Origin: a virus
Length of the DNA: 64,000 bases
Virus record (IMG/VR): IMGVR_UViG_3300017786_000008
Span: 1 to 64,000 of that record
Direction: 5' to 3' (one strand)
How positions within the stretch are numbered: the stretch's first letter is position 1; each line of letters begins with the position of its first letter. Shown here piece after piece: positions 2,670 through 19,600 of this stretch. Below the pieces are notes generated by a model. The model was given only the letters and a program-made list of their open reading frames with translations, was not told where the DNA came from and did no database searches. Position numbers and translations under genes: made by a program.

Positions 2670-3005
2670 ATGAATGTTATTTTAGATAATAAAGTCCTTC
2701 CTTTGGAGATTATGTCCACCCCTAATTCTATCAGTACTGGTATGATGGGTAGAGAATTTCTTGATGGTGGAATGCTTTTTATTTTTCCTGAGGTGTCGGA
2801 ACGTTCTTTCTGGATGAAAGATTGTTTAATTTCTTTAGATATAATCTTTATCATTAATAATAAAGTTACTAAAGTTCATAATAATTGTCTACCCTGTCAT
2901 GAAAATAAATGTGACTCTTATAGAGGTATTGCTGATAAAGTTTTAGAAGTCCCTTCTGGACAATATAATATTAGTGAGGGTGATTTATTAGAGTTTACTA
3001 ATTAG
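2670..3005 (+). CDS. DUF192 family protein
   Basis: A 111-aa protein from the ATG at 2670; the upstream TTG at 2643 would invade the divergent gene. It carries the DUF192 (COG1430) signature in order: early STPNSISTGMMGRE, then GGMLFIFPE, then RSFWMKDCLISLDIIFI, then a late VLEVPSGQYN followed by GD. The family usually has a signal peptide and is secreted or periplasmic; this copy has none, so it is probably cytoplasmic or virion-carried. Its biochemical function is not established. Three cysteines (NNCLPCHENKC) near the middle are an addition. It is one of three plus-strand genes and overlaps the 3' end of the convergent DHH gene by 8 bases. Confidence 0.85.
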   Translation: MNVILDNKVLPLEIMSTPNSISTGMMGREFLDGGMLFIFPEVSERSFWMKDCLISLDIIFIINNKVTKVHNNCLPCHENKCDSYRGIADKVLEVPSGQYNISEGDLLEFTN

Positions 3006-4440
3006 CGTCTATATTTTCTTTAATTTTCTTAACCATTTCTTTTTGTACCCATTTTACAAATTCTACATACCTTGTTGGTTTGGCATCTGCTTTTTTCTTA
3101 TAAGGTCCTTCTGGTTGTCTCGTAGCTCTACTAAAGAAATTTAAACCACTAATATTAGTTATACATTTATGCCCACCACTATTAGCTTGAATGACATCCC
3201 ATGCTGGTACAGTTATCTTATCTAAAACAGCTTTTTGTTTTTCACTTAACTTATCCCAAGGAGTGTCAATTATACTAACTGCCATATCGTAGTATTTTGA
3301 GTCGGTTGATGGCATGTTTTGTAGGTGGTCTTTATATAGTGCAAATAAGTCTGAAGTTTTAAATCCTATACTTTCTCCTTCTGCTTTTGTCTCCCCTATT
3401 CTTTTAATAACTGAAACTGGTACTTGGTGTTTTTTAAGTTGTGGTTCAACCTCTTTTAACACTTCCTGAGCTATATCACCTAAGTTAACACCTTTAAGTG
3501 CTCTATCTTTCTTAAAAGGATTACAAGAAGCTTGTACAAGACCCATTGGCCATGCAACCACAAAAAAGTCAGCGTCAGGATAAATTTTAAATGGTGTGTA
3601 TCTATCATAAGAACCTGGTTTAAATAATCTACCACCACCATACTGTACTATTATATTACCATCTAAATTTAGGTTATTACTTTCTTGTTGGGATTTTATG
3701 TATCCGGCTTGATTTTGTGCCATTTCTTCTGGTGAAGCAAACCCTTTTTCTTTTGCGTATGAGGTTATATTTTGGTATATATTCATTAGGGATGGTGAAG
3801 AATTCATAACTAAGTGTTCTAGAAATCCTGGTTTGTTTTTGTAAGCTAATAATAATTTATTAGTTAAAAGACCTAACATCCATCTTTTTTCATAACTTTG
3901 GTCACCTGACTCAAAATCTCTAATTAAGTTCATAACTTGTTCCGGTTCAATATCGTGTTTTGCATAATCAGCAGAATCAACAGTGTTAATCATCATTATA
4001 TCTTCATCTGTAAAAATATCACTGGGACTTATAGTTTGGGAAATAGTTTCGACATTAGACCTGGCACCTCTAAATTGTGTAGCAGTGTCATCTTCTACCC
4101 CGGCTTGTGAATCATGATGGTCTGTGTGTATTTTAAATATTGGTTTACCGTGTGCAAAATCTACTAGTACTGGCATTACATCATCACTAGCTGAGGGTTT
4201 TTTTACTGAAAATTCTTTATCCCCATATTGTATTACATGAGTATCAATAACATCTATACCATATTTTTCTAAATAATTTTTCATACCTAACGCTGATACC
4301 ACACCATCTAAGTCTTGGTGAAAGTATATCTCAGCTTTTGGGTATCTCTGAGCTAACTTATTAATATCTCTAATACCACCTTCACTTAAAAGTGATTCAT
4401 TAATAAACTCTAATTGTTTTTCTGTTATCTCGATTTTCAT
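2998..4440 (-). CDS. DHH-family phosphoesterase
   Basis: A 480-aa protein. The N-terminus is a short tag, MKIEITEKQLEFINESLL, similar to that of the next gene upstream. The DHH phosphoesterase motifs follow: HQDLDG (41-46), DFAHG (94-98), TDHHD (106-110) and DSAD (155-158). A GGHK motif near residue 440 fits the C-terminal DHHA1 substrate-binding domain. Family members (RecJ, NrnA, c-di-AMP phosphodiesterases) cut phosphodiester bonds with Mn or Mg. The substrate here is unknown; candidates are nanoRNA, cyclic dinucleotides or single-stranded DNA. I chose the ATG at 4440, not 4506, because a TATTTAT box precedes it and the longer form would run into the upstream gene. Confidence 0.8.
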   Translation of the reverse strand: MKIEITEKQLEFINESLLSEGGIRDINKLAQRYPKAEIYFHQDLDGVVSALGMKNYLEKYGIDVIDTHVIQYGDKEFSVKKPSASDDVMPVLVDFAHGKPIFKIHTDHHDSQAGVEDDTATQFRGARSNVETISQTISPSDIFTDEDIMMINTVDSADYAKHDIEPEQVMNLIRDFESGDQSYEKRWMLGLLTNKLLLAYKNKPGFLEHLVMNSSPSLMNIYQNITSYAKEKGFASPEEMAQNQAGYIKSQQESNNLNLDGNIIVQYGGGRLFKPGSYDRYTPFKIYPDADFFVVAWPMGLVQASCNPFKKDRALKGVNLGDIAQEVLKEVEPQLKKHQVPVSVIKRIGETKAEGESIGFKTSDLFALYKDHLQNMPSTDSKYYDMAVSIIDTPWDKLSEKQKAVLDKITVPAWDVIQANSGGHKCITNISGLNFFSRATRQPEGPYKKKADAKPTRYVEFVKWVQKEMVKKIKENIDAN

Positions 4441-4445
4441 ATTAT

Positions 4446-4452
4446 ATAAATA
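4446..4452 (-). promoter_or_regulatory. Candidate promoter box TATTTAT
   Basis: In gene direction GATATTTATATAAT stands directly before the ATG at 4440, supporting that start over the longer frame. Confidence 0.45.
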
Positions 4453-4465
4453 TCTCCTTATTTGA

Positions 4466-5251
4466 TTAACACGGATGTCTTTTATCCCACCAAAATATAT
4501 GGTCACCTATTTTCTTAGCTGACTTTTTATTGTTGTTATAAGATTTAGCTATAGTTCTAGTATTACCCGTACTTAAATCTACTATACTAGGGTTAACATA
4601 GTGATTAACTTTAATAACGTCTCCATCACCAAAGTCTTCAACTATTTTCAACATTTTATCAAAACCTTTAACTTTTTGGTGAGTTATCCTATTTAGTAAT
4701 TCTTGAAACTTTCCTTCTTTATTTAATGAATTGTAGTAGTTCCATGTAGAGTACTGTTTCCCTTTTAATACAGAATCTTTCATACTATACCCACATTTAT
4801 TTGCTCGGTTTTTTATTGTGGATAGGATTGCGTTTAGTTCTTTTTCTCCGGCTGTTTGATTTTCACCTACAAGGGTGGAGGCTAATATGTAATCTTCATC
4901 GTCTTCTGGTATCTCTACTTTAAGTCCTAGTTCTGTTAAAGCAAAAGGACCTAATGGTATATTATTATTTGTTTGTTTACACAAATCAATATCTAATTGA
5001 GTGGATAAGGCTTCCAACATGTCTTTACCGTAGTATCCGTCTCTACCTATACCTAGTTTTTTTTGAATTACGTATATTGGGTGAGTTTTATCTAAATCGT
5101 AATCTCCATAGTTTACCAAACTTCCATTTGTTAGTATATCATAGAAAGAAACATCCACTTCGTTAAATTGCGTTTCTCCAGTAGGTACACACCTTACCCC
5201 AACTTGTTCTACAAGTTTACTATATTGGTTTTCTGTGATTATTATACGCAT
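4466..5251 (-). CDS. SleB-type cell-wall hydrolase with peptidoglycan-binding repeat (endolysin candidate)
   Basis: A 261-aa protein. It begins with MRIIITENQYSKLVEQ, a short tag shared with the DHH protein next to it. Residues 57-85 (HPIYVIQKKLGIGRDGYYGKD then LEALS) look like a peptidoglycan-binding type 1 repeat. Residues 121-253 match the cell-wall hydrolase SleB/CwlJ family: LASTLVGEN with the likely catalytic Glu at 130, AILSTIKNRAN, NHYVNPS (216-222) and KKIGDHIFWW near the end. Such enzymes cleave peptidoglycan glycan strands. No signal peptide is seen, so membrane passage would need a holin, or the protein could be virion-borne. It is the best lysis-enzyme candidate in the window. 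Confidence 0.8.
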   Translation of the reverse strand: MRIIITENQYSKLVEQVGVRCVPTGETQFNEVDVSFYDILTNGSLVNYGDYDLDKTHPIYVIQKKLGIGRDGYYGKDMLEALSTQLDIDLCKQTNNNIPLGPFALTELGLKVEIPEDDEDYILASTLVGENQTAGEKELNAILSTIKNRANKCGYSMKDSVLKGKQYSTWNYYNSLNKEGKFQELLNRITHQKVKGFDKMLKIVEDFGDGDVIKVNHYVNPSIVDLSTGNTRTIAKSYNNNKKSAKKIGDHIFWWDKRHPC

Positions 5252-5257
5252 AAAAAA

Positions 5258-5286
5258 TCGTTTACAATAAATATAATCATAAACGA
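5258..5286. repeat. Inverted repeat upstream of the cell-wall hydrolase gene
   Basis: Perfect 7-base arms TCGTTTA (5258-5264) and TAAACGA (5280-5286) flank 15 bases that contain the TATTTAT promoter-like box (5267-5273 on the minus strand). A promoter box between inverted arms looks like an operator or an RNA hairpin, though no experimental support exists. Confidence 0.4.
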
Positions 5287-5313: not shown

Positions 5314-6210
5314 TTACATACAACTAAAATACCTTTCTCCTCTATCACACAATATAGTTATAGCATCTTTTTTATTATTATCCCTTAACCACTGGAATGA
5401 CGCGAACACGTTGGCTGCCGCACTTATCCCAATAAATAGCCCATAATTTTTAGCTAGATGTCTAGCACAAGCTTTAGCACATTCTGTACTTACTATTCTT
5501 ATTTCTGATACCCTCTCTAAATCTACTAAGAATTTACTTCCGTCTCCTATTCCTTGTATCCCATGAAGACCTGGTTCAAACCCTGACATTACAGCACTTT
5601 CTTTTGGTTCAATAGCTACTGATTTTATATTTGGCCACATTTCTTTTAAAAATTTATCCGTACCCATTAGAGTACCACCAGTACCTGTTCCAGCTACAAA
5701 CACAGCTGGGTGTGATTTTTCACCTTTAAGTTCTTTGTATTGATTATAAAATTCTGGACCTGTGGTTTGGTAGTGTGCTTGAATGTTAAGTGGGTTATGA
5801 AATTGATTGCAATTAAACCATCCCTTATCCTCACACATCTTATCTCTTAGGTCTATTGCCCCATCAAAATCACCATCCTCAACTTCTATTAATTCAGCCC
5901 CATAATATCTAAACATATTTTTACGTTCCTCGGACATATTAGAAGGCATAATTATAACCATTTTATAACCTCTTTCAGCTGCTAACATAGCGAAAGCAAT
6001 TCCACTATTACCACTAGTGGCTTCACATAAAGTACTTCCTTTGACGATTAATCCATTTTTTTCAGCGTGATTAATGATAAATGTTGCCATTCTATCTTTA
6101 ACTGAACCGCTTGGGTTCATAAATTCAGCTTTTCCCCAAACTGTATACCCCCCTATGGTTATTGGTATTAATGGGGTATTACCCACATTATCAGATAGTT
6201 TGGTTTTCAT
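5314..6210 (-). CDS. cysK: Cysteine synthase (O-acetylserine sulfhydrylase)
   Basis: A PLP enzyme making cysteine from O-acetylserine and sulfide. At 298 aa it has the usual family length. Motifs: NTPLIPI near the start, MNPSGSVKDR with the PLP lysine at 38, TSGNSG (65-70), the phosphate-binding GTGTGGT (174-180), GIQGIGDG (217-224), GISAAAN (261-267) and ILCDRGERYFS near the C-terminus. Nothing catalytic appears missing. The cysK/cysM split is uncertain from motifs alone, so the symbol is provisional. Its ATG overlaps the cyclophilin stop as TAATG, so the two are translationally coupled. It is unusual cargo for a phage and may relate to the cysteine-rich virion protein encoded at 49-57 kb. 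Confidence 0.93.
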   Translation of the reverse strand: MKTKLSDNVGNTPLIPITIGGYTVWGKAEFMNPSGSVKDRMATFIINHAEKNGLIVKGSTLCEATSGNSGIAFAMLAAERGYKMVIIMPSNMSEERKNMFRYYGAELIEVEDGDFDGAIDLRDKMCEDKGWFNCNQFHNPLNIQAHYQTTGPEFYNQYKELKGEKSHPAVFVAGTGTGGTLMGTDKFLKEMWPNIKSVAIEPKESAVMSGFEPGLHGIQGIGDGSKFLVDLERVSEIRIVSTECAKACARHLAKNYGLFIGISAAANVFASFQWLRDNNKKDAITILCDRGERYFSCM

Positions 6211-6638
6211 TAGTCTTCTATCTCTACGTTAAACTTGTCTCCCTGTTGTATATTATCTATAACATCTAATCCCTCAACTACCTTACCAAAACATGTATGA
6301 TTTCTATCTAAATGTTGTGTATTTTGTCTACCATGACAAATAAAAAATTGTGAACCACCAGTATTTCTTCCCGCATGTGCCATAGATAACACTCCTTTAT
6401 CGTGAAACTGATTTTCACCCTCTAATTCACAATCAATTTTATATCCTGGTCCACCAGCACCGGTACCATTAGGACACCCTCCTTGAACTACAAAATTAGG
6501 TATCACTCTATGAAAATTTAAATCTTTATAGAATCCCTCTTTCGTTAATTTAACAAAATTATTTACTGTATTTGGTGCGTCTTTTTCATAGAACTCTACC
6601 ACCATAGTCCCTTTATCTGTTGTAATCTTACCTTTCAT
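6210..6638 (-). CDS. Cyclophilin-type peptidyl-prolyl isomerase
   Basis: A 142-aa minimal cyclophilin that interconverts cis and trans prolyl bonds and so helps folding. Catalytic and binding motifs are present: NFHRVIPNFVVQGG (41-54) with the key Arg 44, GGSQFFI (94-100) and HLDRNHTCFGKV (109-120). There is no signal peptide, so it acts in the cytoplasm. It is coupled to cysteine synthase downstream and overlaps the DUF3310 gene upstream by 11 bases. Proline- and glycine-rich structural proteins of this phage are plausible clients, but that is inference. Confidence 0.93.
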   Translation of the reverse strand: MKGKITTDKGTMVVEFYEKDAPNTVNNFVKLTKEGFYKDLNFHRVIPNFVVQGGCPNGTGAGGPGYKIDCELEGENQFHDKGVLSMAHAGRNTGGSQFFICHGRQNTQHLDRNHTCFGKVVEGLDVIDNIQQGDKFNVEIED

Positions 6639-10227: not shown

Positions 10228-10446
10228 ATGTCTTGTAAATCATGTAAATCAAAAAAAATAATGAATGAAGCTGGTAGGATTCAAAAAAACCTCTTAAATG
10301 CTTCTAGAACTATGGAAGAACAAGTATACGATAAAACTTTGGGTCAGGTAAGTCCTGGAGAAAGATTTAGTGTAATAGTATTTGGTTTTATACCTATGAT
10401 TATAGGTTATATATCTGTAATAAAATTTATTATATCCCTCTTATAA
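10228..10446 (+). CDS. Small cysteine-motif membrane protein, 72 aa
   Basis: Begins MSCKSCKSKKIMNEAG, with a CxxC pair, continues with a polar helix and ends with a hydrophobic segment (FSVIVFGFIPMIIGYISVI then KFIISLL) that could span the membrane. It is one of only three plus-strand genes and overlaps the 3' end of dnaJ by 17 bases tail to tail. The CKSCK pair could bind metal or form a disulfide. No family is recognised. Confidence 0.65.
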   Translation: MSCKSCKSKKIMNEAGRIQKNLLNASRTMEEQVYDKTLGQVSPGERFSVIVFGFIPMIIGYISVIKFIISLL

Positions 10447-11437
10447 AGTTTTCTGAATTATATAAATTCCTTAATACGTCTTCTTCTTGTTTAGTTAATC
10501 TTGTAGGCATTTTAATTGTTGGTTTGACCAGGATATCACCGTTTAATCCATTACTTTTTAAAAGTCCTTTGCCACCAACCTTAAATGAGGTGTTTGGTGA
10601 ACTACATGGTGGAATATTAGTATTTATATAACCACCAAAATATGGTATTTCTACAATTCTACCTAATAGTAAATCTAAAATGTTTATTTCTGGTTCATAA
10701 ATTAAGTCTCTATCCGATATTTTAAAATCGCTATGTCTAGCAATAACCACTTGTATTTGTAGGTCCCCTGGATGTCCATTTTCTATTTCTTCCCCCATAC
10801 CTCTAAAAGTATAAACTTGTCCTGTCATTAAATTTTTGGGTATTTCAAAATCTATAGTATTTTCTTTTTTATTTTTTCCAACACCACCACATTTGCCACA
10901 AGCATTTAATAATATTTTACCTTTACCACCACAGTTTGGGCATTGTACTTGTCTTATCTGTCTAAAAAAAGCATTACCAACAGCTTGTTCTAATATACCT
11001 CTACCGTGACAGTGCCCACAAGGTTTAGTTTGACCACCCCCGCCATTACAACCGTCACAATTCACATTTCTATTGTAACGTAACTTTTTTACCCTACCAA
11101 AAAATACATCATCTAAAGATACTGTTAATGGTATACTTAAATTCTTACCCCTCCTAACTTGTCTACGTTGTTGATTTTGTCTAAAAAAGTTATTAAAAAC
11201 ATCTTCCATATTTACATCCCCACCATTACTAAAAGGGTTATCTAATTTATGGTTGTAGTCTTGTCTTTTAGTTGGGTCACCTAGTGTGTCGTACGCTTCG
11301 GATATTTCTTTAAAAATATTTTCATCACCACCCTTATCTGGGTGATGTTGTTTCGATAAATTACGAAATGACTTTTTTACCTCATCTTGAGTCGCATTTC
11401 TATTTATATTTAGAGTTTTATAGTAATCTTTATTCAT
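10430..11437 (-). CDS. dnaJ: DnaJ (Hsp40) co-chaperone
   Basis: A 335-aa type I Hsp40. The J domain covers residues 4-62 with the HPD motif at 32-34, which stimulates DnaK ATPase. A short G/F-like linker follows. The zinc-binding domain has four CxxC pairs (Cys 127/130, 140/143, 166/169, 180/183) in the usual CxxCxGxG style. C-terminal substrate-binding beta domains follow (FEIPKNLMTGQVYTFRGMGE). It is slightly shorter than bacterial DnaJ (about 370 aa). It would recruit host DnaK for phage protein folding or replication complex assembly. Its ATG directly abuts the ATG of the divergent gene, so its upstream signals lie inside that gene. Confidence 0.95.
   Translation of the reverse strand: MNKDYYKTLNINRNATQDEVKKSFRNLSKQHHPDKGGDENIFKEISEAYDTLGDPTKRQDYNHKLDNPFSNGGDVNMEDVFNNFFRQNQQRRQVRRGKNLSIPLTVSLDDVFFGRVKKLRYNRNVNCDGCNGGGGQTKPCGHCHGRGILEQAVGNAFFRQIRQVQCPNCGGKGKILLNACGKCGGVGKNKKENTIDFEIPKNLMTGQVYTFRGMGEEIENGHPGDLQIQVVIARHSDFKISDRDLIYEPEINILDLLLGRIVEIPYFGGYINTNIPPCSSPNTSFKVGGKGLLKSNGLNGDILVKPTIKMPTRLTKQEEDVLRNLYNSENFIRGI
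11401..11407 (+). promoter_or_regulatory. Candidate promoter box TATTTAT inside dnaJ
   Basis: CTATTTATATTTAGAG on the plus strand, about 30 bases before the ATG at 11438, lies within the first codons of the divergent dnaJ gene. Confidence 0.35.
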
Positions 11438-18802: not shown

Positions 18803-19600
18803 TTAATCAGTTAGGTATTCTAATAACTGATAGCTATCATTTCTTAACTTACGCAAAGCTTTTTCTTTTATTTGTCTTACCCTTTCTTTTGTTAAAGATA
18901 GTCCATCACCAATCTCTTGTAGTGTCATAGGTGTTTTATTAAGACCATAATAATCTATTATTATATTTTTTTCTCTCTCATCCAATGCCGCCATTAACTT
19001 AGTTAACTCATCTTTTAAATTTACCTCATCAGCAAAAGATTCTTCTGGGTTATCCGCGTCTTTATTAACTAAAATATCTATAAGTGTGTCACCCTCTTCA
19101 TTTATAGGTCTGTCATAATTTATAGTTGTTGGTAACATAGCTAGTTTAGTATTTAATTTACCTATTTCATCGGTAACTTTTTTTCTTTCTTTATGTAATT
19201 CTTGTATAATATTTACCGGGAGTCTTATTGTACGTGCATGTTCATTTAAAGACTGTAGTATAGATTGTTTTACCCACCAAACAGCGTATGATATAAATCT
19301 AAACCCTTTTTCCCATTTAAAATTATTAATAGCTTTTAGTAATCCGTAGTTACCTTCCGCTATTAAATCTGGTAAATCTACTCCTTGTCCTTGGTAATCT
19401 TTTGCTACACTAATTACAAATCTAAGATTTCCTTCTAATAGTTCTAAATGTATTTTTTCTCTCTCTTTTACTGAAAGTTCGTTACTTAACATCATTTTTG
19501 CCAGTTCTTTTTCTCTTGCTGGTGTTAAAACTTTTCTTTTTCTCACATCTTTTAGATACTGAGAGATTTCTGCTTGGTTTATAAATGTATTTTTTGACAT
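18803..19600 (-). CDS. Phage-encoded sigma-70 family factor
   Basis: A 265-aa primary-type sigma factor. It has region 1.2 (EISQYLKDVRKRKVLTPARE), regions 2.1-2.2 (NLRFVISVAKDYQGQG then DLIAEGNYGLLKA, 58-90), and regions 2.3-2.4 (KWEKGFRFISYAVWWVKQSI, 95-114). Region 3.0 (HARTIRLP, 121-128), a region 3 helix and region 4.2 helix-turn-helix (TLQEIGDGLSLTKERVRQIK, 226-245) follow. There is no region 1.1, so it is compact like Bacteroidota RpoD. It would redirect host RNA polymerase to phage promoters. A recurrent TATTTAT/TATATTTG box before many genes here is its natural candidate target. Such a complete RpoD-like factor is uncommon in T4-like phages, which usually carry short divergent factors. 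Confidence 0.93.
   Translation of the reverse strand: MSKNTFINQAEISQYLKDVRKRKVLTPAREKELAKMMLSNELSVKEREKIHLELLEGNLRFVISVAKDYQGQGVDLPDLIAEGNYGLLKAINNFKWEKGFRFISYAVWWVKQSILQSLNEHARTIRLPVNIIQELHKERKKVTDEIGKLNTKLAMLPTTINYDRPINEEGDTLIDILVNKDADNPEESFADEVNLKDELTKLMAALDEREKNIIIDYYGLNKTPMTLQEIGDGLSLTKERVRQIKEKALRKLRNDSYQLLEYLTD

Follow-up and report, generated by a model that had tools for sequence, protein, structure and literature searches.

Two adjacent genes of IMG/VR virus record IMGVR_UViG_3300017786_000008 encode enzymes that have unrelated bodies and begin with a common leader, M(K/R)IxITExQ. Judging from sequence comparison, this leader (hereafter, the tag) is probably a capsid targeting sequence (CTS), i.e. 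a cleavable N-terminal leader that would bring proteins of large T4-like phages into the core of the prohead. The case is built on the portability of the tag, its restriction to N-termini, the enrichment of predicted protease sites at its end, the conservation of the junctions that follow, the protease and capsid genes of related phages, and a late-promoter context. The window, i.e. the whole stretch of DNA analysed, comprises 64,000 nucleotides (positions 1 to 64,000 of the 80,092-base record).

In T4, the current model is that the leader directs a protein to the scaffold core, gp21 trims it, and the protein is kept in the head and injected (PMC9026906, PMC3012670, PMC5694885). CTSs are 10-20 residues long and are cut by gp21 (PMC5694885, PMC9026906); a protein can be targeted without being processed (PMC9026906). 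The internal proteins of T-even phages are highly diverse, the CTS alone being conserved (PMC3012670).

For tagged proteins, we infer core binding, cleavage, packaging, and delivery from their sequences. Residues 1-13 of the tag would bind the scaffold core, recruiting late-made proteins into the prohead; a phage gp21-type protease would cut after the E of (L/I/V)xE at the leader end; and the mature enzyme would stay in the head and then enter the host with the DNA. In the window, the cargo would be a DHH phosphoesterase, hydrolysing nucleotides or oligonucleotides, and a probable peptidoglycan hydrolase. After delivery, the former may act in the cytoplasm on nucleic acids or small nucleotides, hydrolysing them, and the latter may open peptidoglycan locally.

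The tagged genes of the window

The features concerned are as follows (the arrow marks a predicted cut):

2998..4440, minus strand: DHH-family phosphoesterase ORF, 480 amino acids including the leader, ATG at 4440
4381..4440, minus strand: DHH leader MKIEITEKQLEFINESLLSE (residues 1-20), with the tag core at residues 1-9 (4414-4440)
4378..4398, minus strand: predicted prohead-protease sites INE15↓S and LSE20↓G of the DHH leader; E20 and the junction are conserved in relatives
4446..4452, minus strand: TATTTAT element resembling a late promoter; its first T lies 12 nt ahead of the DHH ATG
4466..5251, minus strand: probable SleB-type (Hydrolase_2-like) cell-wall hydrolase ORF, 261 amino acids, with a peptidoglycan-binding-like N-terminal part
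5207..5251, minus strand: hydrolase leader MRIIITENQYSKLVE, predicted site LVE15↓Q
5267..5273, minus strand: TATTTAT element resembling a late promoter; its first T lies 22 nt ahead of the hydrolase ATG

The original prediction, that two adjacent enzymes with unrelated bodies share one start, proved exact: window positions 4387-4440 (minus strand) encode MKIEITEKQLEFINESLL, the DHH ORF as a whole starting MKIEITEKQLEFINESLLSEGG, and the hydrolase ORF, read downward from 5251 on the same strand, starts MRIIITENQYSKLVEQ. The ORF listing places the DHH start at GTG 4506; ATG 4440 is preferred because relatives support it.

The Pfam DHH match of ORF 2998-4440 is under the gathering score (E=0.0022). 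Its alignment conserves the metal-binding motifs HQDLDG (HxDxDG), DHH, and GGHK, and the leading Foldseek matches of its model are all DHH enzymes (RecJ, PggH, TM1595, DhhP), albeit at low TM-scores (0.25-0.34). Having both the fold and the metal-binding motifs, the ORF is assigned to the DHH/DHHA1 phosphoesterases; a sequence search of the PDB with the DHH profile gave no match. In the AlphaFold model, pLDDT is below 50 at residues 1-5 and 11-23, and the body is confident from about residue 26. ORF 4466-5251 matches PHROG 938 (endolysin; E=9.9e-5) and, by BLASTP, a tagged protein at locus L138 (E=1e-10) that itself matches Pfam Hydrolase_2 (E=4.6e-13); a Pfam search with the ORF did not match Hydrolase_2 directly, and its AlphaFold model is unusable (pLDDT 33).

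Other minus-strand genes of the window encode host-like metabolic or folding proteins, namely a glutamine synthetase, a PLP-dependent (cysteine-synthase-like) enzyme, a cyclophilin, and DnaJ (1457-2500, 5314-6210, 6210-6638, and 10430-11437).

Distribution of the tag

The 80,092-base record contains these two tagged ORFs only; many more occur in relatives, so that the pattern is clearly present beyond the pair. An ATG-anchored degenerate pattern gave thirty-four matches in seventeen related records against one for the reversed pattern, and a second pattern, anchored at the start codon, gave 124 against two in twenty-nine records of large uncultured T4-like phages, with 1-16 matches per positive record. 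Comparing bodies from residue 23 onward only, the 201 distinct tagged ORFs fall into sixty-nine clusters, some of which may conceal distant homology; the tag is thus portable, as had been proposed.

Across IMG/VR, the tag was found in at least 120 stretches, a lower bound on its prevalence. Ninety-nine tagged starts were read among the listed loci, of which ninety-three lead into an open frame of at least sixty codons or run off the contig. When ATG was replaced by any codon not beginning with A, ninety-two stretches matched; fifty-seven of these lie again at a start (MGKIIITE, MAKIIITE, MSKIIITE), several others resemble GTG or TTG starts, and only about five hold a genuinely internal tag. 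The 84,980 species genomes of GTDB (257 Gb) yielded six matches, none of them a convincing tagged gene. Given so few internal matches and no convincing GTDB gene, the tag is N-terminal and virus-specific. The reversed-pattern, non-ATG, and GTDB controls rule out a chance origin.

These counts also bear on the idea that the common beginning reflects a small homologous domain or chance convergence and is no functional tag. In favour of it, small proteins often begin with such a strand-turn-helix. However, sixty-nine body clusters, 124 matches against two in the control, and near absence from protein interiors and from GTDB refute it, and the tag is too short for a domain and is modelled with low confidence in the DHH protein. 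We consider this explanation hardly credible.

The nearest named phages by major capsid protein (MCP) are Flavobacterium phage immuto and Microcystis phage Mel-JY01; the ITESQ tag is absent from immuto, the nearest named relative, and neither the tagged lysozyme nor the protein of cluster c4 was matched in named phages. A tblastn search with the 21-residue tag consensus gave no matches, probably because the consensus is too short. Searches of the literature for the tag or the string KIIITES returned no description.

The peptide under selection

With each cluster represented once, the consensus reads MKIIITE(S/N)Q(Y/L/F)(K/R)x(L/I), which the full leader consensus extends by xxE. Residues 10 and 13, which lie outside the search pattern, are still conserved over sixty-eight unrelated bodies (Y/L/F in 78 per cent and L/I in 94 per cent). 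The codons vary (ATA/ATT/ATC; ACA/ACT/ACG/ACC; Ser8 from both TCN and AGY; Leu13 from six codons) and the residues stay constant, which indicates that selection acts on the peptide. A start cassette acting at the DNA level was rejected as the main cause on this codon variation.

Predicted cleavage sites and head genes

T4 gp21 cuts sites of the hydrophobic-x-E class. The motif [ILVFM]xE ends at residues 12-22 in forty-nine of sixty-eight cluster representatives (72 per cent), compared with a mean of 24 per cent and a maximum of 37 per cent in control windows taken from these proteins, and its end positions peak at residues 15, 16, and 20; a clear site by residue 22 is missing in the other nineteen (28 per cent). 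Peptidase_S77 (gp21) exceeds the cut-off in twelve related records, all of which also encode gp23; the gp21 homologue of G004, for example, lies at 150869-151570. In the seven gp23 MCPs read from records of tagged phages, LINE↓A or LLNE↓S stands at residues 57-61, which corresponds to the T4 gp23 processing position. After the predicted tag cut, the residue may be S, N, Q, A, or D, a looser choice than the A or S that follows the cut in the MCP. Neither gp21 nor gp23 was found in the 80,092-base window record. This record aligns colinearly with roughly the first 80 kb of a related genome (G004), in which the head genes occupy 145-157 kb; it lacks head genes because the fragment matches only that first part of G004.

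Exchanged leaders and constant junctions

The DHH family carries leaders of 7 to about 20 residues, among them MKRIIKE, MRRLINE, MELVNTLSQILLKE, MKIIITESQYKMLINE, and the window leader. The junction [ILV]xE↓(S/G)GI(R/Q) follows in 30/30 proteins; with one FINE↓E variant from a huge phage, xE↓ is found in 31/31, and E20 is invariant in all thirteen aligned relatives. The homologues of two huge phages begin M..KY.QFINE↓E, resembling T4 ipII and ipIII, which begin MKTYQEFIAE↓A. (The product of T4 gene 61.1, NC_000866 18966-19130, begins MKTFKEFIKE↓D and likewise resembles the IPII/IPIII capsid targeting sequence.)

HVA1-like proteins have (L/I)xE↓AEY(Q/K)G in 17/17 cases under several different leaders, with FLTE↓A, LLTE↓A, and LLQE↓A among the forms. 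Their body is leaderless in the non-T4 phages Aegir and CRP-901, where it starts MAKYQGRTVKL or MATYKGKSVSL; it has a T4-type CTS in Kyanoviridae phage C48C1 (MKKFKQYIDE↓GCC...ELTE↓AEYQGKKV) and the tag at locus L189. Clusters c3, c5, and c16 likewise combine swapped leaders with a kept junction. The suggestion that a phage protease processes the tag thus gains support, at the level of sequence, from the gp21-type site at its end, the gp21 and gp23 genes of relatives, and a junction that is invariant across leaders.

It is unlikely, in our estimation, that the tag directs proteins elsewhere (to the membrane, tail, a host complex, or the replication compartment), its xE being part of an amphipathic helix only. 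Some tagged bodies are peptidoglycan hydrolases that could act at lysis, and in the AlphaFold model of the DHH protein, residues 7-19 form a helix of low confidence. Against this, bodies of cytoplasmic function (a sigma factor and a pterin dehydratase) are tagged too, and the junction is invariant under unrelated replacement leaders and matches the MCP processing site.

Probable late-promoter context

In six genomes, 17-23 per cent of ORFs have TATTTAT at most 30 nt upstream, compared with an expectation of about 1 per cent. Since it also precedes portal and protease genes, it is probably the late promoter of the group. It is upstream of 109/200 tagged genes. The frequency of the xE site at residues 7-26 of ORFs with this probable late promoter is 0.54, 0.47, and 0.57 in G004, G010, and G011, respectively, compared with 0.36, 0.32, and 0.33 in controls. 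ORFs without a late promoter show no enrichment in these three genomes and in G002; in G012, they are enriched as well.

This arrangement raises the alternative that the tag has no protein function and is an expression cassette, aiding the translation of late mRNAs whose 5' leader is very short or absent. The first T of TATTTAT lies 11-12 nt before the ATG in 81/109 tagged ORFs that have the element, a spacing that would make the transcripts near-leaderless, and the first codons of the tag are A-rich. Yet the residues are constant where the codons vary, roughly half of the tagged genes are without a TATTTAT promoter, residues 10-15 are constrained, the tag can also stand one residue after Met (MGKIIITE, MAKIIITE), and the conserved xE↓ junctions are left unexplained; this alternative appears very improbable.

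Distances from TATTTAT to the start favour 11-13 nt and about 20-25 nt (in the window, G002, G004, G010, G011, and G012), suggesting that leaderless and short-leader late mRNAs occur in one phage. The window also encodes a sigma-70-family factor (18803-19600, minus strand; Sigma70_r2 E=1.4e-15, r4 E=2.4e-16), a candidate reader of TATTTAT promoters.

Comparison with known systems

The closest parallel to a capsid-targeting tag is the CTS of T4 (IPI, IPII, IPIII, and Alt; cut by gp21). Both are short N-terminal leaders of otherwise unrelated phage proteins with diverse bodies, both have an MK start and end in a gp21-type hydrophobic-x-E site, both occur alongside head genes of the gp21 and gp23 families (in twelve related records, an S77 protease together with gp23, which in the seven proteins read bears a matching processing site), and one protein family can bear either leader. 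They differ in that the tag reads ITESQ...L, whereas T4 has TYQEF; that it is usually 15-20 residues long, compared with 10 in T4; and that dozens of protein families carry it, compared with a handful in T4. Since the ITESQ core is not similar to the T4 targeting segment (MKTYQEF), we class the tag as a functional analogue or variant of the T4 CTS and not as a sequence homologue.

The T4 gp23 site, FLTE↓A, has a counterpart at the corresponding place in the MCPs of tagged phages (LINE↓A) and in the HVA1-like junctions, but the gp23 propeptide belongs to a shell protein and the tag to putative cargo. The inner-head and ejection propeptides of phiKZ and SPN3US (protease gp175/gp245) are also N-terminal, cut after E, and often have several sites, and the diverged paralogues gp53 and gp54 have identical N-termini (PMC5694885). 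In contrast to the tag, these propeptides mostly have at least 100 residues, a common portable tag is not described for them, and they belong to another lineage with another site preference.

Tagged bodies as possible cargo

Pfam families among the tagged bodies are sigma-70, pterin-4a-carbinolamine dehydratase (Pterin_4a), M23, Phage_lysozyme, Hydrolase_2, DUF5872, and L5_gp82. We lean, by a small measure, towards the broader view that the tag family (ITESQ and LTESDL forms and shorter leaders) is a general packaging code with which large uncultured T4-like phages load dozens of unrelated enzymes into the head for injection, so that effectors would be readable from N-termini, and that this cargo includes metalloprotease-like proteins and peptidoglycan hydrolases as well as a sigma-70 factor, DHH phosphoesterase, and pterin dehydratase. 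Injected proteins are known for a few model phages only. If the broader view is right, effectors for host takeover, counter-defence, and entry could be listed from sequence in widespread large uncultured phages, and the T4 capsid-targeting principle would have been reinvented or diversified with other targeting sequences.

One tagged protein is a sigma-70 factor of 192 amino acids with Sigma70_r2 and r4 (locus L046, G011:17573-18151); packaging would turn it into an injected sigma factor. HExxH motifs like those of zinc metalloproteases were seen in several unrelated tagged proteins (clusters c2, c5, c38, c40, and c54), for three of which Pfam returned no protease family. ART-like and kinase-like readings of some other bodies were not confirmed by Pfam and were dropped.

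A second portable leader, MKKIKLTESDLYRIVRKVLLE↓Q, was observed in thirty-six IMG/VR stretches (L116, L303, and L369-L400), many of them on one 256-kb contig; its bodies are mostly repeat-rich proteins, with others among them.
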